Below are positions 1 to 16,877 of a stretch of DNA of 64,000 nt, piece by piece. How positions within the stretch are numbered: position 1 is the first letter of the stretch; every line of letters starts with the position of its first letter. The notes under the pieces were generated by a model, which did no database searches, was not told where the DNA came from, and saw only the letters and a program-made list of their open reading frames with translations. The translations under genes were made by a program, and so were the position numbers. This stretch comes from Candidatus Poribacteria bacterium (GTDB taxonomy: Bacteria; Poribacteria; WGA-4E; WGA-3G): NCBI GenBank assembly GCA_022825825.1, contig JAJDWA010000062.1:124001-188000 (forward strand), given 5' to 3'.

Positions 1-111
1 ATCGCTCCTTCTATTTTTTACAACGATTTTACTTGATATTATCTTATGTTTCTACTACAATTTTAACTTAATCTAATCTAATATTCCACTTAAATTTTGC
101 GGAGGGACTCA

Positions 112-396
112 ATGGCAAGGAAAAAACTTACTGATTCTGAAATTCAGAAGAACTTAGAGAAACTCGACGGTTGGACTGTCCAAAACGGTAAACTCCATAA
201 GGAATTTCAGTTCGATAACTTCGTTTCGGCGTTCGGTTTCATGACACAACTCGCTTTAATTGCAGAATCTATGAATCATCATCCTGAATGGTTCAACGTT
301 TACAACCGCGTGACAATTGACATGAGCACACACGATGCGGATGGCATCACTGAATTGGACTTTAAATTCGCAGAGCATGCCGATGTACTTGAGTAG
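112..396 (+). CDS. phhB: 4a-hydroxytetrahydrobiopterin dehydratase (pterin carbinolamine dehydratase, PCD/DCoH)
   Basis: The 94-residue protein matches the short PCD family along its whole length. The catalytic core is visible as NHHPEW followed by a Y-x-x-V strand and a THDADGIT-x-x-D segment. The enzyme dehydrates 4a-hydroxytetrahydropterin in the cytoplasm, recycling pterin for aromatic amino-acid hydroxylases. I place the start at ATG 112 because GGAGG lies at 101-105; an in-frame TTG at 97 would add five residues and has no ribosome site. It precedes the WD40 gene by 12 nt, so the two may be co-transcribed. No phenylalanine hydroxylase is nearby, so the physiological partner is unknown. 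Confidence 0.9.
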   Translation: MARKKLTDSEIQKNLEKLDGWTVQNGKLHKEFQFDNFVSAFGFMTQLALIAESMNHHPEWFNVYNRVTIDMSTHDADGITELDFKFAEHADVLE

Positions 397-408
397 CGGG
401 GTTGATTG

Positions 409-2403
409 ATGCACCAACAAGACTACACGCAATGGCATCTCGTTGAAGGTGCTATTGCACGCTTAGGAAAAGGCGAAGTCAACGACCTTAAATTTTCTCC
501 AGACGGTTCACTATTAGCAGCAGCAACTGCAATTGGGATTTGGCTGTACGATGTGCATACCGGCAAAGAAATCACAATGTTACCACATCCGAAAAAAGTT
601 AACGCATTGGTTTTTTCAAACGACGGTAAAACACTTGCAGCTGGAGAATCTGAATACCAGGGATATGATAGCACTGTCCTGCTATGGGATGTTGAAACAA
701 GTAAGGTTATCTCGTCTTTCACAGGAAATTGGCATCAGATTAAATCATTAGCCTACACAGCAGATGGTAAGGAACTTGTTATTGCTGGCGGCAGCAAAGG
801 CTGGACAGAAGAAATTTGGACCTGGAACCCCGCAGCCGGTACACATCAGGAGAACGTTATAGATTTGTCCCATCTGAAAGAGTATCCAGGAACAACACTG
901 GTTCTCTCACTGGATGGACGTTATCTTGCAAATGTCGTAAAATTAAATAATAATCATAGAAGAAAAATTGAAATTTGGGAAGTCAACACGGGCCATCAGA
1001 TATCTACACTAGATCCTCCACTTGGATCAGTTTCAACAATTGTATTTTCCCCAGACCAGAAAACATTTGTTAAATCAGGGTATGAACCCGATACTGATCA
1101 AATTCAGTTATGGGACATAGAAACCGGTAGATTGTATTCTAATTTTAACACATCAACATATCTTAATTCCTTCACATTTTCACCAAATGGTAACCACATT
1201 GCGACAGGAAGTAGAGATGGTATCGTTCGGGTGTGGAAAGTCCCTGTTCATGCTAAATCTTCAATCTTGCATCGTGCGTGGGGTCTTATATTCGGTCCAC
1301 AGCCAAAAACGTACTTGGGACATACAGAATCATTCAGATTCAATGCAATCACTATTTCACAAGACAGCAAAATGGTTGCAAGTGCAAATACTGATGGAAC
1401 TATCCGAGGGTGGGATATAGAAACTGGTACTGAGAAAATCTCATTAGCACAACATTCATGTGAGGTAAAGACTTTTGCGTTCTCCGAAAATAATAAGGCA
1501 CTCATAAGCATCGGCCTGGATATGGGCAAGAAGATTGCATCTGTATGGAATACTGAAAACGGTAGGGAACGCACAACTGAAATTATTGATGAGAGCACTC
1601 CTGGAATTGCGGCAGTCAGACTGTCAACAGATGCAAGACTATTTGCTACAGAGAGTGCTGACGAATCAGTTCGGTTGTGGGATGGTTCTACAAATCGCTT
1701 TATATCACTCCTGAAAGCGAAAAAAGTGGCCAACGGTCCAAGATATGCTTTTGAGCGAAAATTGGTATTTTCACCTGACAATAAAATATTAGCAAGAGGA
1801 CACAGCGACGGGACAATCCAACTATGGAATTTGGAAAACCGTCACGAATTGCCGACACTTGAAGGACACACTGGCAACTGCCGTAGGTTAGTCTTTGCAC
1901 CAAATAGCAAGACATTAGCAAGTACGAATTCTGACGCTACTACACGTTTATGGGATGTCACCACTAACACCGAAATCGCACAATTCGAGGGTGAAGAAAG
2001 CCGTACATTGGCGTTAGCATTTTCACCGGATGGAAAAACATTCGCAAATGGGGTAAATATTTTTCGACTTGGTGAAACAAACGATAGTTACGTCCACTTA
2101 TATCGACTACAGAACGTTAAATATAACATCGTAATGGGATTGACATTTTCGCCAGATACAAAATACCTAATTGCCAGCGGATTTGGAAAAATTGAGATTT
2201 GGGACGCAACAAATGGTGAATATCTCTCTACAATTAATGCCCACACTGGTTGGGTTGAGGAATTGATGTTTTCCTCAGATGGCGCAATACTGGCAAGTAG
2301 AAGTGAATACGATGGCACCATACTCCTCTGGGACTGGGATAAAATAAAACCTAACACCATTCAAAATGAAAATCCTAAAAACTATGGTGAATTAGACAAA
2401 TAA
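409..2403 (+). CDS. WD40-repeat beta-propeller protein
   Basis: The 664-residue protein is built almost entirely of WD40-type blades. The pattern 'FSPDGK-x-LA...I-x-LWD' recurs roughly every 42-60 residues across the chain, which suggests about twelve or more blades, i.e. two propellers. There is no signal peptide, transmembrane segment or attached enzymatic domain, so it is probably a cytoplasmic protein-interaction scaffold. The start is ATG 409; TTG at 406 is adjacent and weaker. Exact partners cannot be predicted. WD40 proteins of this kind are abundant in Poribacteria, which is one reason for the taxonomic guess. Confidence 0.85.
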   Translation: MHQQDYTQWHLVEGAIARLGKGEVNDLKFSPDGSLLAAATAIGIWLYDVHTGKEITMLPHPKKVNALVFSNDGKTLAAGESEYQGYDSTVLLWDVETSKVISSFTGNWHQIKSLAYTADGKELVIAGGSKGWTEEIWTWNPAAGTHQENVIDLSHLKEYPGTTLVLSLDGRYLANVVKLNNNHRRKIEIWEVNTGHQISTLDPPLGSVSTIVFSPDQKTFVKSGYEPDTDQIQLWDIETGRLYSNFNTSTYLNSFTFSPNGNHIATGSRDGIVRVWKVPVHAKSSILHRAWGLIFGPQPKTYLGHTESFRFNAITISQDSKMVASANTDGTIRGWDIETGTEKISLAQHSCEVKTFAFSENNKALISIGLDMGKKIASVWNTENGRERTTEIIDESTPGIAAVRLSTDARLFATESADESVRLWDGSTNRFISLLKAKKVANGPRYAFERKLVFSPDNKILARGHSDGTIQLWNLENRHELPTLEGHTGNCRRLVFAPNSKTLASTNSDATTRLWDVTTNTEIAQFEGEESRTLALAFSPDGKTFANGVNIFRLGETNDSYVHLYRLQNVKYNIVMGLTFSPDTKYLIASGFGKIEIWDATNGEYLSTINAHTGWVEELMFSSDGAILASRSEYDGTILLWDWDKIKPNTIQNENPKNYGELDK

Positions 2404-2510: not shown

Positions 2511-3794
2511 ATGGCACATACAAGTTTCGTTTTAATCGCAGGACTTATCTTTCTGATTCGCTATGAACCGCCGGAAACAGCAGCAGAATTCAACAACGCG
2601 CAAGTTGCCCTTTGGATATGTATACTTACCACAGCCCCAGTATTTCTTGCATATCTTACAAAGCGGCTCTTCACCTTACGTCCGATGATCGTTTTTGAAA
2701 TCTTGAGTTTAGTAGGGTTCGTTTACATCCTGTACCAGATGAACTTGCCAGGATTCATCAATAAACATCTCGTCTTTTTGGAAAGGGTCCATCATTCACG
2801 TGAGATTTTTTCTTTAATTCCGCTTTTCGTCGGGTTGCTCGGTATTCGAGTCGTAATGCAGGAGATACCGCTAAGAAAAACCAAACTACGGTGGGAATTC
2901 CTTAGTTTCAATTTCAGATTGCTACTCCTCCCACTGATTCCACTATTAGCAATTAATGCGGTTCTTGATCTCACTCATTTGCTTCCTGAAACGGTTCAAC
3001 CTTTTGTAGGTCTTGGGCTTCTTCTTCCGTTACTCGTGCTTCCATTCATCATCGCACCTTTAATGATGCAATTCTTGTGGAAAACAGTACCGCTAACAAA
3101 TACAGTGCTGAAGCAGAAACTGCAGCTGTTAACGGAGCGGAGCGGGATAAAGTACCGAGATATCACAGTGTGTCAAACGCGGGGTTTAGCAATAGCAAAT
3201 GCTGCTGTCGCAGGCATAATTCCACGCAACCGTAAAATCTTTATTACAGATGCACTCTTACGCAATTTTACAGATGAACAGATTGAGACAATTGTAGCTC
3301 ATGAAATCGGACACATTCGTCATAGACATCTCCTTATTTCTGGCTGCCTTGTGTTCGGTTATTTGATAAGTTCAGTCCTGTTTTATCAATTAGTAGGGGA
3401 ACCGTTAAATTCACTTCTCACGGGATATCCGATTATCTTATCAATTGTTTCGGTACTCTTTTTTGTCCTCTATTTTAAGGTTTTCTTTAATTATCTGTCT
3501 CGACGTTTTGAACATCAAGCAGACTTGTACGCTATTGACCTTACCAACAATCCGGAAGCCTTTAAATCTGCATTAGAAAGCCTCGGATTTCTCAGGACAC
3601 TTCCTAAACCAATTCGTTTTATTCTCGAAATTTTCAATACACACCCATCTATAGATCGAAGAATCAAATTTTTAGATAGATCAACGGAGGAAAATTCCCA
3701 CATTCAACGTTATAGAAAGTGTCTACTTGAGGTAAAAGTATTGCTCGCTTTAATCCCGATATTCGGGATTCTCATTTTTCTGATAAATTGGTAG
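2511..3794 (+). CDS. M48-family zinc metalloprotease, multi-pass membrane protein
   Basis: This 427-residue protein has the M48 (HtpX/Ste24-like) signature. HEIGH at residues 264-268 supplies the two zinc-binding histidines and catalytic glutamate, and E334 in E-H-Q-A-D is the expected third ligand. Hydrophobic segments flank the catalytic part: several between residues 5 and 190, two around 275-325 and one at the C terminus, so the active site probably faces the cytoplasm at the inner membrane. A role in membrane-protein quality control is inferred from the family. Start ATG 2511 has AGGA at 2493-2496, somewhat far upstream. It is followed by an oxidoreductase gene in the same direction. Confidence 0.88.
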   Translation: MAHTSFVLIAGLIFLIRYEPPETAAEFNNAQVALWICILTTAPVFLAYLTKRLFTLRPMIVFEILSLVGFVYILYQMNLPGFINKHLVFLERVHHSREIFSLIPLFVGLLGIRVVMQEIPLRKTKLRWEFLSFNFRLLLLPLIPLLAINAVLDLTHLLPETVQPFVGLGLLLPLLVLPFIIAPLMMQFLWKTVPLTNTVLKQKLQLLTERSGIKYRDITVCQTRGLAIANAAVAGIIPRNRKIFITDALLRNFTDEQIETIVAHEIGHIRHRHLLISGCLVFGYLISSVLFYQLVGEPLNSLLTGYPIILSIVSVLFFVLYFKVFFNYLSRRFEHQADLYAIDLTNNPEAFKSALESLGFLRTLPKPIRFILEIFNTHPSIDRRIKFLDRSTEENSHIQRYRKCLLEVKVLLALIPIFGILIFLINW

Positions 3795-3831
3795 ACACAG
3801 TTTGTTATCCTATAAAAGAGGTGCTATTTTT

Positions 3832-4911
3832 ATGAGTCAAAAGACATATCGTGCGGCAGCAATTGGACGGACCGGTGCTGGAAACTTCGGACACGCATTG
3901 CATACTGCATACAAAAATATAGAAAATGTAGAATTTATCGCTATCTCTGACCCCGATGAAGCGGGTAGGGCAAAAGCAGCTGAGGAAACAGATGCTTTGC
4001 GTAGCTACGCTGATTATCGAGACATGTTGGAGAAAGAAACACTTGATATTGTGAGTGTCTGTCCGCGCTGGACATCAGAACATGTTGCTATGGTAACTGC
4101 CTGTCTTGATGCGGGATGCAGCGTCTATTGTGAGAAACCGATGACGAGTACACTCGCAGATGGCGATATAATTGTTGCGACAGCGAAAAAACATGGATTA
4201 AAGGTGGCTATAGCGCATCAGGCAGTCTACCTTCCTGCAACGCATGCCATCAAACAGATGCTTGACGATGGTAAGATCGGTACCGTCCAAGCTATTTATG
4301 CCAGTGGTAAGCAGGATCATCGCGGTGGCGGTGAGGATATGATTGTACTTGGTACACATACATTCAATATGATGCGTTTTTTCGTAGGTGATGTTGCATG
4401 GATGCAATCTCATGTTACCAAAGATGGAAAAGAGGTTGCCTATGGCGATGACCATGAACCGACTGAACCCGTTGGGCCGGTCGCAGGTGATTGCATCAAT
4501 AGTTACTTTGCTTTTGAGAGCGGCGTTTCCGGTTTTTTCCAATCCCGCAAGGATCAAGCAGGCTCAGGCAGGTATGGCATGGAGATTGTTGGAAGTGAAG
4601 GGACTTTCTCTTTACGTGGTGATGTTGCGAATCGACTTATGGTATACCCTTATCCTGTGTTAGTTCCTTCAAATCCTAAACAGGAATGGGAGGCGATTGA
4701 CCTTGACCAAACGCCTTTTTCCAGTGGTAACGAATTGGCAATTCTTGATCTGATTGATGCGATTGAGAATGACCGCAAACCGATTTCCGCTGCTGAAGAT
4801 GCTGTTGCTGCATTGGAGATGATTTTAGGTGCCTATGAATCCCAACTCACAGGTCAAAGAGTTCCGTTCCCAATTGAGAATCGCGAACACCCGTTGAGTC
4901 GTGGTGCTTAA
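3832..4911 (+). CDS. Gfo/Idh/MocA-family oxidoreductase (copy 1)
   Basis: The 359-residue protein has an N-terminal Rossmann fold (GRTGAGNFGH near residues 10-20) and the EKPMTS motif that carries the family's active-site lysine, followed by the alpha/beta substrate domain. Such enzymes oxidise or reduce sugars, inositols or sugar derivatives with NAD(P); the substrate cannot be told from sequence. ATG 3832 is chosen because AAGAGG lies about 10 nt upstream; an in-frame upstream TTG at 3802 lacks a ribosome site. It is one of three paralogues in the window (see 11788 and 31667), in keeping with expansion of the family in sponge-associated lineages. Confidence 0.88.
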   Translation: MSQKTYRAAAIGRTGAGNFGHALHTAYKNIENVEFIAISDPDEAGRAKAAEETDALRSYADYRDMLEKETLDIVSVCPRWTSEHVAMVTACLDAGCSVYCEKPMTSTLADGDIIVATAKKHGLKVAIAHQAVYLPATHAIKQMLDDGKIGTVQAIYASGKQDHRGGGEDMIVLGTHTFNMMRFFVGDVAWMQSHVTKDGKEVAYGDDHEPTEPVGPVAGDCINSYFAFESGVSGFFQSRKDQAGSGRYGMEIVGSEGTFSLRGDVANRLMVYPYPVLVPSNPKQEWEAIDLDQTPFSSGNELAILDLIDAIENDRKPISAAEDAVAALEMILGAYESQLTGQRVPFPIENREHPLSRGA

Positions 4912-4953
4912 GCAGCGCATTCCTAAATCTCAATTCAGCAGTCATCCCCTTGG

Positions 4954-4978
4954 TAGGTGCGGTTTCTAACCGCACCTA
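4954..4978. repeat. dispersed hairpin repeat copy 2
   Basis: TAGGTGCGGTT-TCT-AACCGCACCTA is a perfect 11-bp stem with a 3-nt loop, located between convergent genes. It could also act as a transcription terminator, but no T-run follows on the plus strand. Confidence 0.8.
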
Positions 4979-5038
4979 ATGACAAAAAAATAAGAAAAAT
5001 AGCGTTAATTTGGTATTATATATGCACAATGATTTCAC

Positions 5039-6238
5039 TTAGTCTTTTGAAACAAGACCTATATTTGACGAAATTGCCTTATCCCAGTCAGCAGTGAACA
5101 GCCACCAATTTGTCATGTCTTTGTTCTCATACTGAATGCCGTTTTTGTGTCCGGGCATATTCTGCATCCAGTAGATATACCACTGTGACTCTACACGTTG
5201 CACAATTTTTTCAGGATCGGCATCAGACCATGCATATTTCAATTTTCCGTAAGTATCAACGTTAACTAATTTCTTTGTTCCGCTATTATCTGGTGTCCAA
5301 TCCTCAATATCGCTTTCTACCAGCGTCATCGTTTCAGTATAGTCGTAGTGTTTTGTAGTATTTGGTGGCATGTGTGTCCAACCTGCACGTCCAGTGATAA
5401 AGTTACCGCTTTCGTCTTGGCCGACAAATTTTTTCCAAAAGAGGTCTGTATTACCGAACTGTAGATGATTGACATGGCTCAATATTGCTTCCAACTGATG
5501 TCCATGATTATGCACCGCTTCTGCATGGCTTCGTCTAAAATTCTGCCCGTATACTGTATATGTTGAGTTGTAGATAGGTAGGTCGGTGTTATCTCGGTTA
5601 CTGTTGGATATGTCCCCAGTCAGTGGGCTTGACATATTCGATTCCCACCAGTTTCTGAAATCTTCAGGTTTATGGATTTCCGGGTCATAACAAGGAAAAT
5701 CAGAGTTCACACCACCCATCCACATCCAAATCTCTTTGACGCCCAAATCATTAATATAATGTTCCATATTGAATCGTTCTAAAATTTTATGGTAATCGGG
5801 TGAATAGAGAGGACTACCATCCTTTAAATGACCAGTAACAGGACCTTGCGGTGTTTGCTCATAAACGGTAATGTATTCTACCACCCGATAACCTATTGAA
5901 GGCACAGCAGCAGCGTTTTTATACCCTCTAAACCGAGTTCCCTCTTCAAGCATAAACTTTACCCGTTTGTCAAAAAGATCGATCCTTGCTTTCAATTCCT
6001 CTAATGAAATTTCCCCTAATTCCCAAAAATCAGGGGCTTTGGAAATATCTAAATTTACACCGTCTGTGGTAGGTAAAAACCGCATAATGACAACTGGAAT
6101 TTCATAAAGGTGTCCTGGTGCTGGCGTGGTTAAAAAAGGATCGATTTTCTCAAATACAGGTGGAAGTTCCTTGGTATATCCCCGCATGGGTTGCATTAGC
6201 ATCATTATAAAAACTGTTCCTAATAATATATTCTTCAT
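5039..6238 (-). CDS. secreted protein of unknown function
   Basis: This 399-residue protein starts with a clear signal peptide (basic MKN, hydrophobic stretch, cleavage expected near residue 20), so it is exported. The mature part is rich in tryptophan, tyrosine, histidine and asparagine. It has a conserved-looking N-H-G-H-Q-L-E segment in the middle and no transmembrane helices. I do not recognise a named family; the H-x-H could be metal-binding, but that is speculation. It is transcribed towards the oxidoreductase (convergent) and away from a strong hairpin at 6270-6301. It is followed at its 3' side by a dispersed hairpin repeat. Confidence 0.7.
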   Translation of the reverse strand: MKNILLGTVFIMMLMQPMRGYTKELPPVFEKIDPFLTTPAPGHLYEIPVVIMRFLPTTDGVNLDISKAPDFWELGEISLEELKARIDLFDKRVKFMLEEGTRFRGYKNAAAVPSIGYRVVEYITVYEQTPQGPVTGHLKDGSPLYSPDYHKILERFNMEHYINDLGVKEIWMWMGGVNSDFPCYDPEIHKPEDFRNWWESNMSSPLTGDISNSNRDNTDLPIYNSTYTVYGQNFRRSHAEAVHNHGHQLEAILSHVNHLQFGNTDLFWKKFVGQDESGNFITGRAGWTHMPPNTTKHYDYTETMTLVESDIEDWTPDNSGTKKLVNVDTYGKLKYAWSDADPEKIVQRVESQWYIYWMQNMPGHKNGIQYENKDMTNWWLFTADWDKAISSNIGLVSKD

Positions 6239-6380: not shown

Positions 6381-6773
6381 TTATTCAATCACTTTTGCCT
6401 TAAAACGAGGATCTGCTTCAACAGCCTTTACCAGAGCATCGTTTGTAACTTTGCCCTTTTCTACTTTAACGACAGCTTTATTAGCGGATCTGTCAACACT
6501 AACAACCTCTTTAACACCTGAAACCTTAGCAAGTGCAGACTGCACTGCTGGTGGACACGCACTTCATGTCATGCCTGTAACAGTTAAACTGATTTCTTCA
6601 ATAGCAACCGCAGCTTCTTCAGCCTGTTCTGTTGTCTCAGTTTCTTGTGCTTGTTCTGTTGTCTCAGTTTGTTGAGTCTCTTCTGCTGGTTTCTCTTCAG
6701 TATCTTTTTGCTGGTTAGCACACCCAAAGACAAATGCCAGCATTACAATGCAGATAAGTGCTTTATTTAACAT
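6381..6773 (-). CDS. selenocysteine-containing HMA-domain lipoprotein (copy 1, UGA read through)
   Basis: Read through one in-frame TGA (complement at 6564-6566), this gene encodes 130 residues. It begins with a lipoprotein signal peptide (lipobox VFG-C18). A Glu/Thr/Gln-rich linker with an internal 27-nt direct repeat follows, then a 65-residue heavy-metal-associated (HMA) domain. The HMA motif normally reads GMTCxxC; here it is GMT-U70-SAC, the TGA replacing the first cysteine, and the rest of the domain continues intact for 60 residues to TAA. A stem-loop AGTGCA-GTC-TGCACT lies 23 nt after the TGA. A metal or redox role in the periplasm is inferred. AAGGGAG precedes ATG. A pseudogene is unlikely because the paralogue has the same arrangement. 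Confidence 0.88.
6532..6546 (-). promoter_or_regulatory. candidate bacterial SECIS hairpin of HMA copy 1
   Basis: On the coding strand AGTGCA and TGCACT pair around a GTC loop whose first base is G. Twenty-three nucleotides separate the TGA from the loop, within the 16-37 nt window given for bacterial SECIS elements. The stem is preserved in the paralogue while loop bases differ. Confidence 0.65.
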
Positions 6774-6893
6774 TTGAAATAACTCCCTTAGATAGATTCA
6801 CCACAATAATTAAGAATATTCTTACGTCTTGCAGTTTATCTTTCACTATCTCCAAAAGTATTGGATATTGGACAATTTGCCCAAAATAAGATG

Positions 6894-6915
6894 AAGGGCG
6901 AGTAAACTCGCCCTT
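6894..6915 (-). terminator. hairpin terminator after HMA copy 2
   Basis: AAGGGCGAGT-aa-ACTCGCCCTT is a perfect 10-bp inverted repeat just past the stop of the second HMA gene. The T-run beyond it on the minus strand is poor, so termination is plausible rather than certain. Confidence 0.5.
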
Positions 6916-6923
6916 ACAAGTTG

Positions 6924-7307
6924 TTAGTTAACAACACTTGCCGTAAAGCGCGGATCTGCTTCAACAGCTTTAATCAGAGCATCATTTGTAACTTTGCCCT
7001 TTTCTACTTTAACGACAGCCTTCTTGGTGGCTCTTGTAACACTGACAACCTCTTTAACACCCGTGACCTTACTAAGTGCATCCTGCACTGCGGCGGGACA
7101 CGAGCCTCATGTCATGCCCTCCACCTGAAGTGTCACTTCCTGATAGGCGGCTTTTTCTGGCGTTGGCACCGATAATTCTTCCATCGGGACCTCTTCCGCA
7201 GTCATTGTGGTTTCTACGGGCATTTCTGCTTGCTGCCCGACCATACCACAACCCATCAGGAATGCAAAGGTAACGAGAGTAATCAGCGTAAATCTCGCGA
7301 TATTCAT
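6924..7307 (-). CDS. selenocysteine-containing HMA-domain lipoprotein (copy 2, UGA read through)
   Basis: This 127-residue tandem paralogue has its own lipoprotein signal (LMG-C20), a short acidic linker and an HMA domain reading GMT-U67-GSC, with the TGA complement at 7107-7109. The 60 residues after U are about 75% identical to copy 1 and end at the same alignment position, so both genes are evidently under selection past the TGA. The stem AGTGCA/TGCACT recurs 23 nt after the TGA with loop GGA. AAGGAGG directly precedes the ATG, and a good promoter lies at 7339-7368. The U-x-x-C pair should bind a soft metal such as Hg or Cu, or act in redox chemistry; the family is known for that, the substrate here is inferred. 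Confidence 0.88.
7075..7089 (-). promoter_or_regulatory. candidate bacterial SECIS hairpin of HMA copy 2
   Basis: Coding-strand AGTGCA-GGA-TGCACT sits 23 nt after the TGA, at the same distance and with the same stem as in copy 1. G occupies the first loop position. Confidence 0.65.
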
Positions 7308-7338: not shown

Positions 7339-7368
7339 ATAATATCATATTTTTTTATTTTGTGTCAA
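7339..7368 (-). promoter_or_regulatory. sigma-70-type promoter for HMA copy 2
   Basis: Read on the minus strand: -35 TTGACA (7363-7368), 18-bp spacer, -10 TATTAT (7339-7344), about 30 nt ahead of the ribosome site and ATG. Confidence 0.55.
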
Positions 7369-15752: not shown

Positions 15753-16877
15753 TTATGGCTTATAGATTGTTGTTTCGGGATAGTAGCGTGCCCAAGCGAA
15801 CCAGTAAATATTGACAGCGGTCAACCGTTCCAAACGCGTCCCTTTCTCTTTACCCGATATTGCCACACCTGTGACCAGATTCCAGCGTGTTCCGGTGTTG
15901 TCCTCTACAAAATGTCCATCTTGAGATCGAAAGGTTCGCACATCTTTTCCAATGTTTCGCTTAAAGACAGCCGTTGCGAATGACACTTTATCGTGAAAAA
16001 TCAGCAACGGCACTTCACCGACCATATCGTTAATCACGGCCGTTTTGGCAAAGTGTGTTAATGGATACGCGCGAAACTGTGTATTATAGGGATCGACAGA
16101 ACCGCTTCGTCCATCAGCACCGTCTTGCCCAGCAGTGCCGGGTTGTCCATCAGCTCCATCTCTACCATGGTCGCCATCTCTGCCCGGAGCACCATCTTTT
16201 GTCTGGACTTGGACTCCGATCACAAGGGACTTATTAGGCAGTCTCTTATCGGTGTATCTTGTCCCACTCACACCTGCGCGTTGGCTTTTATGATAGTCTG
16301 CGTAATTATCGCGCTTGAAGCTTTCGCGCGCACCTACAGACAACACTTTTGTCTGAGGGTAATTTGTTTGCCATGTTTTCCACGCTATCTGTGGCATGGA
16401 AGCGAGTGGTTTCAACTGCTTGCCTTTCAGTGGTCCCTGTATCGCTTCCCCAGTGATGTGAGACCAGAGAGAACGGGTTTGGTGGTCGTACATTAACAAC
16501 GCATCACGCCACAATTTACCGCTGACACCGAATGTATAGGTTTTACCGTCAAGTTCCCGGCTATACACGATAGCCGTTTTGCAGAGCGGTCACCATGTGG
16601 TAGCGATTTTGTTTCCGCCGACAACATCGTTCACAATCTCGTGTCCGTTCAGCAGATAGAGTGAGTAGGCATGACTTTCACCGTTGAAGGTTACACCAAT
16701 CACAGGGGCATCCGCGTCTAATTTTGCTTTGGCAGCAGGCACAAATTGCGGTTTTGTGATGGCGGGGATTGCATCAAAGGGTAGCAGGGTTCGGATTGGG
16801 TCTTTATCGTCCTCTGCTGCGGTTGCACTGAGGGAGGCGCCGAGTAATAGTGTGAGAATGAGGATATAGTTTTTCAT
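15753..16877 (-). CDS. DUF3179 selenoprotein with collagen-like insert (UGA read through)
   Basis: Reading through one TGA (complement at 16590-16592) gives 374 residues. There is a signal peptide (residues 1-20), then a first DUF3179 half whose usual T-W-C-P-L-C motif reads T-T-W-U96-P-L-C99. The downstream YSRELDG, FGVSG and SLWSHITGEA segments are all typical of the family. Residues 229-261 are eleven Gly-X-Y triplets inserted between VIGV and the RAYPL of a second DUF3179 half. A 7-bp stem CGGCTAT/ATAGCCG follows the TGA. AAGGA precedes the ATG. The protein is exported; its reaction is unknown, but U-x-x-C suggests redox or metal chemistry. Reading it as two broken genes is unlikely because frame and family continuity are perfect. 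Confidence 0.88.
16095..16193 (-). repeat. collagen-like Gly-X-Y coding segment
   Basis: Eleven uninterrupted triplets (GAP GRD GDH GRD GAD ...) with Asp/Arg-rich X and Y positions. It lies at a turn of the second DUF3179 half, so it may form a solvent-exposed trimerising loop. Confidence 0.85.
16558..16576 (-). promoter_or_regulatory. candidate bacterial SECIS hairpin of the DUF3179 gene
   Basis: Coding strand CGGCTAT-CGTGT-ATAGCCG: a perfect 7-bp stem and 5-nt loop with G in second position. Twenty nucleotides separate TGA from the loop. Confidence 0.7.

Follow-up and report, generated by a model that had tools for sequence, protein, structure and literature searches.

Selenocysteine (Sec, U) is mostly known from redox enzymes, and selenoprotein P of animals, whose fold is unrelated to that of the HMA domain, carries several Sec residues in one secreted protein. 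HMA selenoproteins have already been catalogued, namely, the UxxU_metal_bind family NF041115, the MerT/CopZ fusion-like transport selenoprotein NF045683, and the MerP and ATPase selenoproteins of the GOS marine predictions. NF041115 is described as a metal-binding protein and putative mercuric reductase (PMC13188914). The GOS source lists 'MerP', a tiny family of 2 sequences with no motif given there, and 'cation-transporting ATPase E1-E2, UxxC' (PMC2398784). Metallochaperones of the MerP/CopZ/Atx1 type belong to the same domain family and have the same GMTCxxC loop as the proteins studied here, and the closest solved relatives of the latter are MerP, CopZ and the HMA domains of Cu-ATPases (1osd, 1afi).

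Candidatus Poribacteria are best known as sponge symbionts. We analysed a stretch of 64,000 nt from a Candidatus Poribacteria bacterium (JAJDWA010000062.1, 124,001 to 188,000; hereafter the window), in which a sequence-only reading had noticed two adjacent paralogues, each with a single in-frame TGA at the first Cys of the GMTCxxC motif. Coordinates and translations confirm this arrangement (genes A and B, Table 1). Both products are predicted to begin with a hydrophobic signal peptide that has a lipobox, followed by an acidic linker of low complexity and the HMA domain, and, with U read as C, score 31.1 bits (gene A) and 40.6 bits (gene B) against PF00403, above the gathering cut-off of 24.8. 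The reading frames run for 60 residues past the TGA to a TAA in both genes, the shared stop position already noted, and the identity of about 75% claimed for this part was measured as 45 of 60 residues; over the full length, identity is 56%. In alignment A1, the N terminus is hydrophobic and Cys18 is nearly invariant. Both products are putatively exported and lipid-anchored. The terminator-like hairpin between the two genes suggests that they may be transcribed separately.

Table 1. Features of the window and of related poribacterial loci (L numbers); genes A and B were translated with TGA as U.
Sequence	Feature	Position	Strand	Details
Window	Gene A, Sec-HMA lipoprotein	6381..6773	-	Predicted secreted; 130 aa; U70; lipobox FVFGC; metal loop GMT-U70-SAC
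Window	Gene A Sec codon	6564..6566	-	In-frame UGA
Window	Gene A SECIS hairpin	6532..6546	-	AGTGCA-GTC-TGCACT
Window	Gene B, Sec-HMA lipoprotein	6924..7307	-	Predicted secreted; 127 aa; U67; lipobox FLMGC; metal loop GMT-U67-GSC
Window	Gene B Sec codon	7107..7109	-	In-frame UGA
Window	Gene B SECIS hairpin	7075..7089	-	AGTGCA-GGA-TGCACT; loop start 23 nt past UGA
Window	Gene B stop codon	6926-6924	-	TAA
Window	Promoter-like site 5' of gene B	7339..7368	-	TTGACA-18-TATTAT, 11/12, TG before second hexamer; pattern match only, not enriched relative to shuffles
Window	Terminator-like hairpin between genes B and A	6894..6915	-	9-bp stem; pattern match only
Window	Exported 399-aa protein	5039..6238	-	No Pfam match
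Window	DUF3179 gene	15753..16877	-	PF11376, 260 bits; TGA at 16592-16590 in TTW-U-PLC
L138	Second copy in G060, motif deleted	3999..4292	-	
L027	GMTRFTS lipoprotein	6393..6890		
L133	GMTRFTS lipoprotein	2756..3250		
L139	GMTRFTS lipoprotein	4506..5003		
L133	Poly-HMA gene	4356..5576	+	
L134	Poly-HMA gene	3350..4342		
L135	Poly-HMA gene	3610..4602		
L136	Poly-HMA gene	3167..4165		
L021	Cytochrome-c-like/WD40/HMA(U) fusion	88..1716	+	Example

Like genes A and B, NF041115 is of the HMA type with Sec at the metal motif, and it is the best or second-best NCBIfam match for both genes. However, its motif is UxxU with two Sec residues, whereas that of genes A and B is UxxC with one, and the two genes are set apart from it by their export signal and tandem arrangement. 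NF045683 shares the CopZ-like HMA domain, but genes A and B are without its MerT membrane part. Since genes A and B score below the cut-offs of NF041115 (47.9 and 55.1 bits; cut-off 95), NF045683 (32.3 and 42.5 bits; cut-off 375) and MerP TIGR02052 (39.9 and 52.9 bits; cut-off 92.55), we assigned them to none of these families. The GOS ATPase is listed with UxxC, as in our genes, but is a membrane pump, and lipid anchoring, a tandem pair and a poly-Sec array are not described for the GOS selenoproteins in the accessible part of that source (PMC2398784). In contrast to the MerP/CopZ/Atx1-type metallochaperones, genes A and B have Sec in place of the first Cys, encode predicted lipoproteins, and lie in no mer or cop operon. 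What is new here is the lipoprotein UxxC form and the conservation of its tandem pair, with a covarying SECIS, across the phylum, together with a cytochrome-c/WD40/HMA(U) fusion and poly-HMA proteins with three to four Sec residues; our literature search turned up no publication that treats poribacterial selenoproteins.

The nearest named relatives are all Candidatus Poribacteria, and the tandem pair has a TGA in both copies at all six relative loci that we fetched. A homologue was found in 80 of the 84 genomes searched in the phylum, and in 55 of the 55 good ones. The main HMA locus was fetched from 69 genomes; it contains two or more U-HMA sites in 56 of them and one, by pattern, in 11, and for the remaining two (G025 and G026) the genome search gives a homologue that has a single TGA. 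The two copies, or orthologues of them, recur across most of the phylum. We aligned 173 non-identical HMA domains from the fetched loci by HMM columns with no residue preset (a pattern-based census admitted only U or C), and found U at the site in 153, Cys in 19, a deletion in 1 and nothing else, in agreement with the sequence-only reading, which placed the TGA where the first Cys should be. The second ligand is Cys in every aligned domain except for one deletion. The 19 Cys domains belong to outgroup HMA proteins or lie inside poly-HMA proteins, and some of the outgroup domains sit in open frames of 700-870 aa, which, by their length, are probably P-type ATPases. The second copy in G060 has lost only TGMTUGACTS, and its remaining sequence is still an open frame. 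At three loci (Table 1), a third, diverged lipoprotein adjoins the pair; it reads GMTRFTS, which leaves it without metal ligands, and its C-terminal half differs.

In 141 Sec domains, positions 17-31 nt past the TGA are occupied by a hairpin with the sequence (A/G)GTGCA-GNN-TGCACT or a variation on it. The AGTGCA/TGCACT stem had been noticed in both genes of the window, with loops that differ, and this holds; however, it had been placed 23 nt after the TGA, which is where the apical loop starts, the stem starting 17 nt after the UGA. All four inner pairs are intact, and a G opens the loop, in 141 of the 141 Sec domains; as the sequences share descent, these are not counts of independent events. 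The same four pairs are found in only one of six Cys HMA domains within Poribacteria (sister domains) and in none of 24 Cys HMA homologues from other phyla. The contrast in codon choice is striking all the same: the Val codon in the stem is GTG in 140 of 141 domains, whereas seven codons further on Val is encoded by GTG in only 1 of 106. Random synonymous recoding at the codon usage of the window yields the 4-bp hairpin together with its loop G about 5% of the time, compared with 141/141 observed, which is well beyond chance. Judged from these patterns, codon choice downstream of the TGA is locked to the hairpin. As for covariation, a single GTG-to-GTA change in the stem is matched on the other arm by GCA-to-GTA, and a Gln-to-Arg replacement (CAG to CGG) is in most cases paired with a T-to-C change, although only a few sequences have double compensatory changes, 6 of them at one pair and 1 at another. 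RNAalifold independently gives precisely the AGTGCA/TGCACT-type stem.

The published bSECIS model has a loop of 3-9 nt, a stem of 4-16 bp, a G in the first two loop positions, a UGA-to-loop distance of 16-37 nt and an MFE of at most -7.5 (PMC13188914). The geometry of the poribacterial hairpin (a GNN loop 23 nt after the UGA, on a stem of 5-6 bp) lies within this model, and 91% of the hairpins reach the MFE threshold when 37 nt past the UGA are folded. Single-sequence folding z-scores are mostly near zero, and some sequences favour other folds over 52 nt; hence, the case for a SECIS rests on conservation and covariation. An Rfam scan of the 64-kb window gave no matches, a result that is uninformative here.

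The machinery that Sec insertion presupposes, the presence of which had been left to be checked, is found in the same genome (5.1 Mb, 84% complete): selA (611 bits), selB (352 bits) adjoined by a tRNA-Sec (78.7 bits) with the anticodon TCA (UCA), and selD (372 bits), which has an in-frame TGA of its own within a CAGU motif and, judged by eye, a short GC-rich hairpin downstream. Across the phylum, selA is above the cut-off in 71 of 84 genomes, and a few genomes without a full match, such as G034 and G060, probably have assembly gaps at this point; G060 is also the genome with the motif-deleted copy. A second kind of selenoprotein gene in the window encodes a DUF3179 protein (Table 1) with a collagen-like insert and has a hairpin, CGGCTAT-CGTGT-ATAGCCG, 3' of its TGA; DUF3179 is a listed family of selenoproteins (PMC13188914). 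We consider it nearly certain that Sec is inserted at the UGA of genes A and B, which supports the main interpretation of the earlier reading, that is, Sec at the Cys position of the metal loop. SelB and tRNA-Sec, guided by the short SECIS hairpin within the coding sequence, would insert Sec as the first ligand of the loop GMT-U-x-x-C.

It is probable, though well short of the confidence we place in the insertion itself, that this Sec serves as a metal ligand; the identity of the closest solved relatives and the retention of both ligands in every aligned domain but the one deletion speak for this role. In the mechanism we propose, the products would be lipid-anchored, exported HMA-fold proteins whose exposed selenol and thiol together bind ions of soft metals (Hg(II), Cu(I), Cd(II), possibly methylmercury), and metal capture at the cell surface would be tighter, or operate over a wider pH range, than with CxxC. 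Soft-metal capture appears to be the likeliest role. Membership of a mer system was rejected, as the TIGR02052 scores are below the cut-off, the neighbour survey found no mer genes beside the Sec-HMA genes, and MerT was found in 0 of the 55 good-quality genomes of the phylum; therefore, a scavenger or a periplasmic metallochaperone is likelier than an uptake partner. The conserved neighbours include neither a metal transporter nor a reductase or metal regulator. A GIY-YIG/UvrC-like gene is the conserved upstream neighbour in the family of the window, and many relatives have phytanoyl-CoA-dioxygenase-like, glycosyltransferase and ribose-phosphate pyrophosphokinase-like genes nearby (named by inspection). 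The exported 399-aa protein of the window adjoins the pair also at L026, L028 and L142.

A genomic context without metal genes leaves room for true selenoproteins that are redox-active, with the UxxC cycling through a selenenylsulfide as in thioredoxin-like proteins and the HMA fold as a mere scaffold, for example in a peroxide reductase or in envelope disulfide exchange. Among selenoproteins of known function, most are redox enzymes, and UxxC commonly serves as a redox motif (PMC9312934, PMC13188914), but the domain is HMA rather than Trx-fold, GMTCxxC with its flanking VxxAL is the metal-site signature of the HMA fold, and the Cys replacements retain the CxxC metal motif. We hold a redox role, the main rival reading, to be unlikely, at odds of roughly one in five.

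Secreted poly-HMA proteins occur in four genomes (G075, G046, G070 and G028) and consist of either four or three HMA-U domains plus one CxxC domain, with a hairpin for every U and a terminal CxxC domain without Sec; they pass the 95-bit cut-off of NF041115 only by summing 4-5 domains. The accessible part of PMC13188914 tabulates prokaryotic proteins with one to three Sec residues each. The same SECIS hairpin as in genes A and B is also found in a fusion of a cytochrome-c-like (CxxCH) part, WD40 and a C-terminal HMA(U) in 17 genomes, and all three HMA domains detected by Pfam in the incomplete genome G000 are Sec-containing. These genes with 3-4 UGA-plus-hairpin units, and the fact that every HMA domain found in G000 has Sec, could suggest that the proteins, above all the poly-HMA forms, mainly hold or deliver selenium, loosely like selenoprotein P; the likeness is an analogy only, as the poly-HMA genes repeat the hairpin in frame for each Sec site, whereas selenoprotein P uses 3'-UTR elements. 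However, the HMA metal motif and the second Cys are retained, every poly-HMA protein terminates in a CxxC domain without Sec, and storage would not need an HMA fold, so we consider such a role improbable.

Two further readings can be set aside on sequence grounds as having next to no chance. That the TGA is a real stop followed by a residual frame is what standard ORF calling gives for both genes, and the motif is lost in the G060 copy and replaced in the GMTRFTS lipoprotein, but the dN/dS past the UGA is 0.23-0.27 (genes A and B against their nearest orthologues), indicating purifying selection, which, together with phylum-wide retention and hairpin-locked codons, bears out the earlier argument against decay. 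A lineage-wide reassignment of TGA to Trp, Gly or Cys has nothing in its favour beyond the in-frame TGAs themselves. Of the 81 long ORFs counted across the window and six poribacterial loci, 22 (about a quarter) still end in TGA, the second-ligand Cys is encoded by TGT or TGC at all 141 Sec sites counted, and the Sec machinery is complete.

Taken as a whole, SECIS-directed Sec in an exported HMA lipoprotein, with soft-metal binding as its putative function, is our preferred explanation, at a probability of about 0.78. A bolder proposal, which we put forward tentatively and regard as somewhat less than an even bet, is that Poribacteria have moved their exported HMA metal sites largely to Sec, in the pair, the fusion and the poly-HMA proteins, and so built up a sponge for soft metals, based on selenols, at the cell surface; in capturing mercury it would be the functional counterpart, in bacteria, of selenoprotein P. 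SelA and SelB have been reported to be common in sponge symbiont bins and absent from most close reference genomes (PMC5649159), and the Sec-HMA genes offer a concrete product for this frequency. The repeated hairpin, together with sister Cys domains without it, is a natural experiment on what a SECIS requires, and the genes with three and four UGAs are a test of how a bacterium decodes several Sec residues per message. Phylum-wide and repeatedly duplicated use of Sec, probably to bind metal, would stand as a clear example of selenium chosen for its coordination chemistry.
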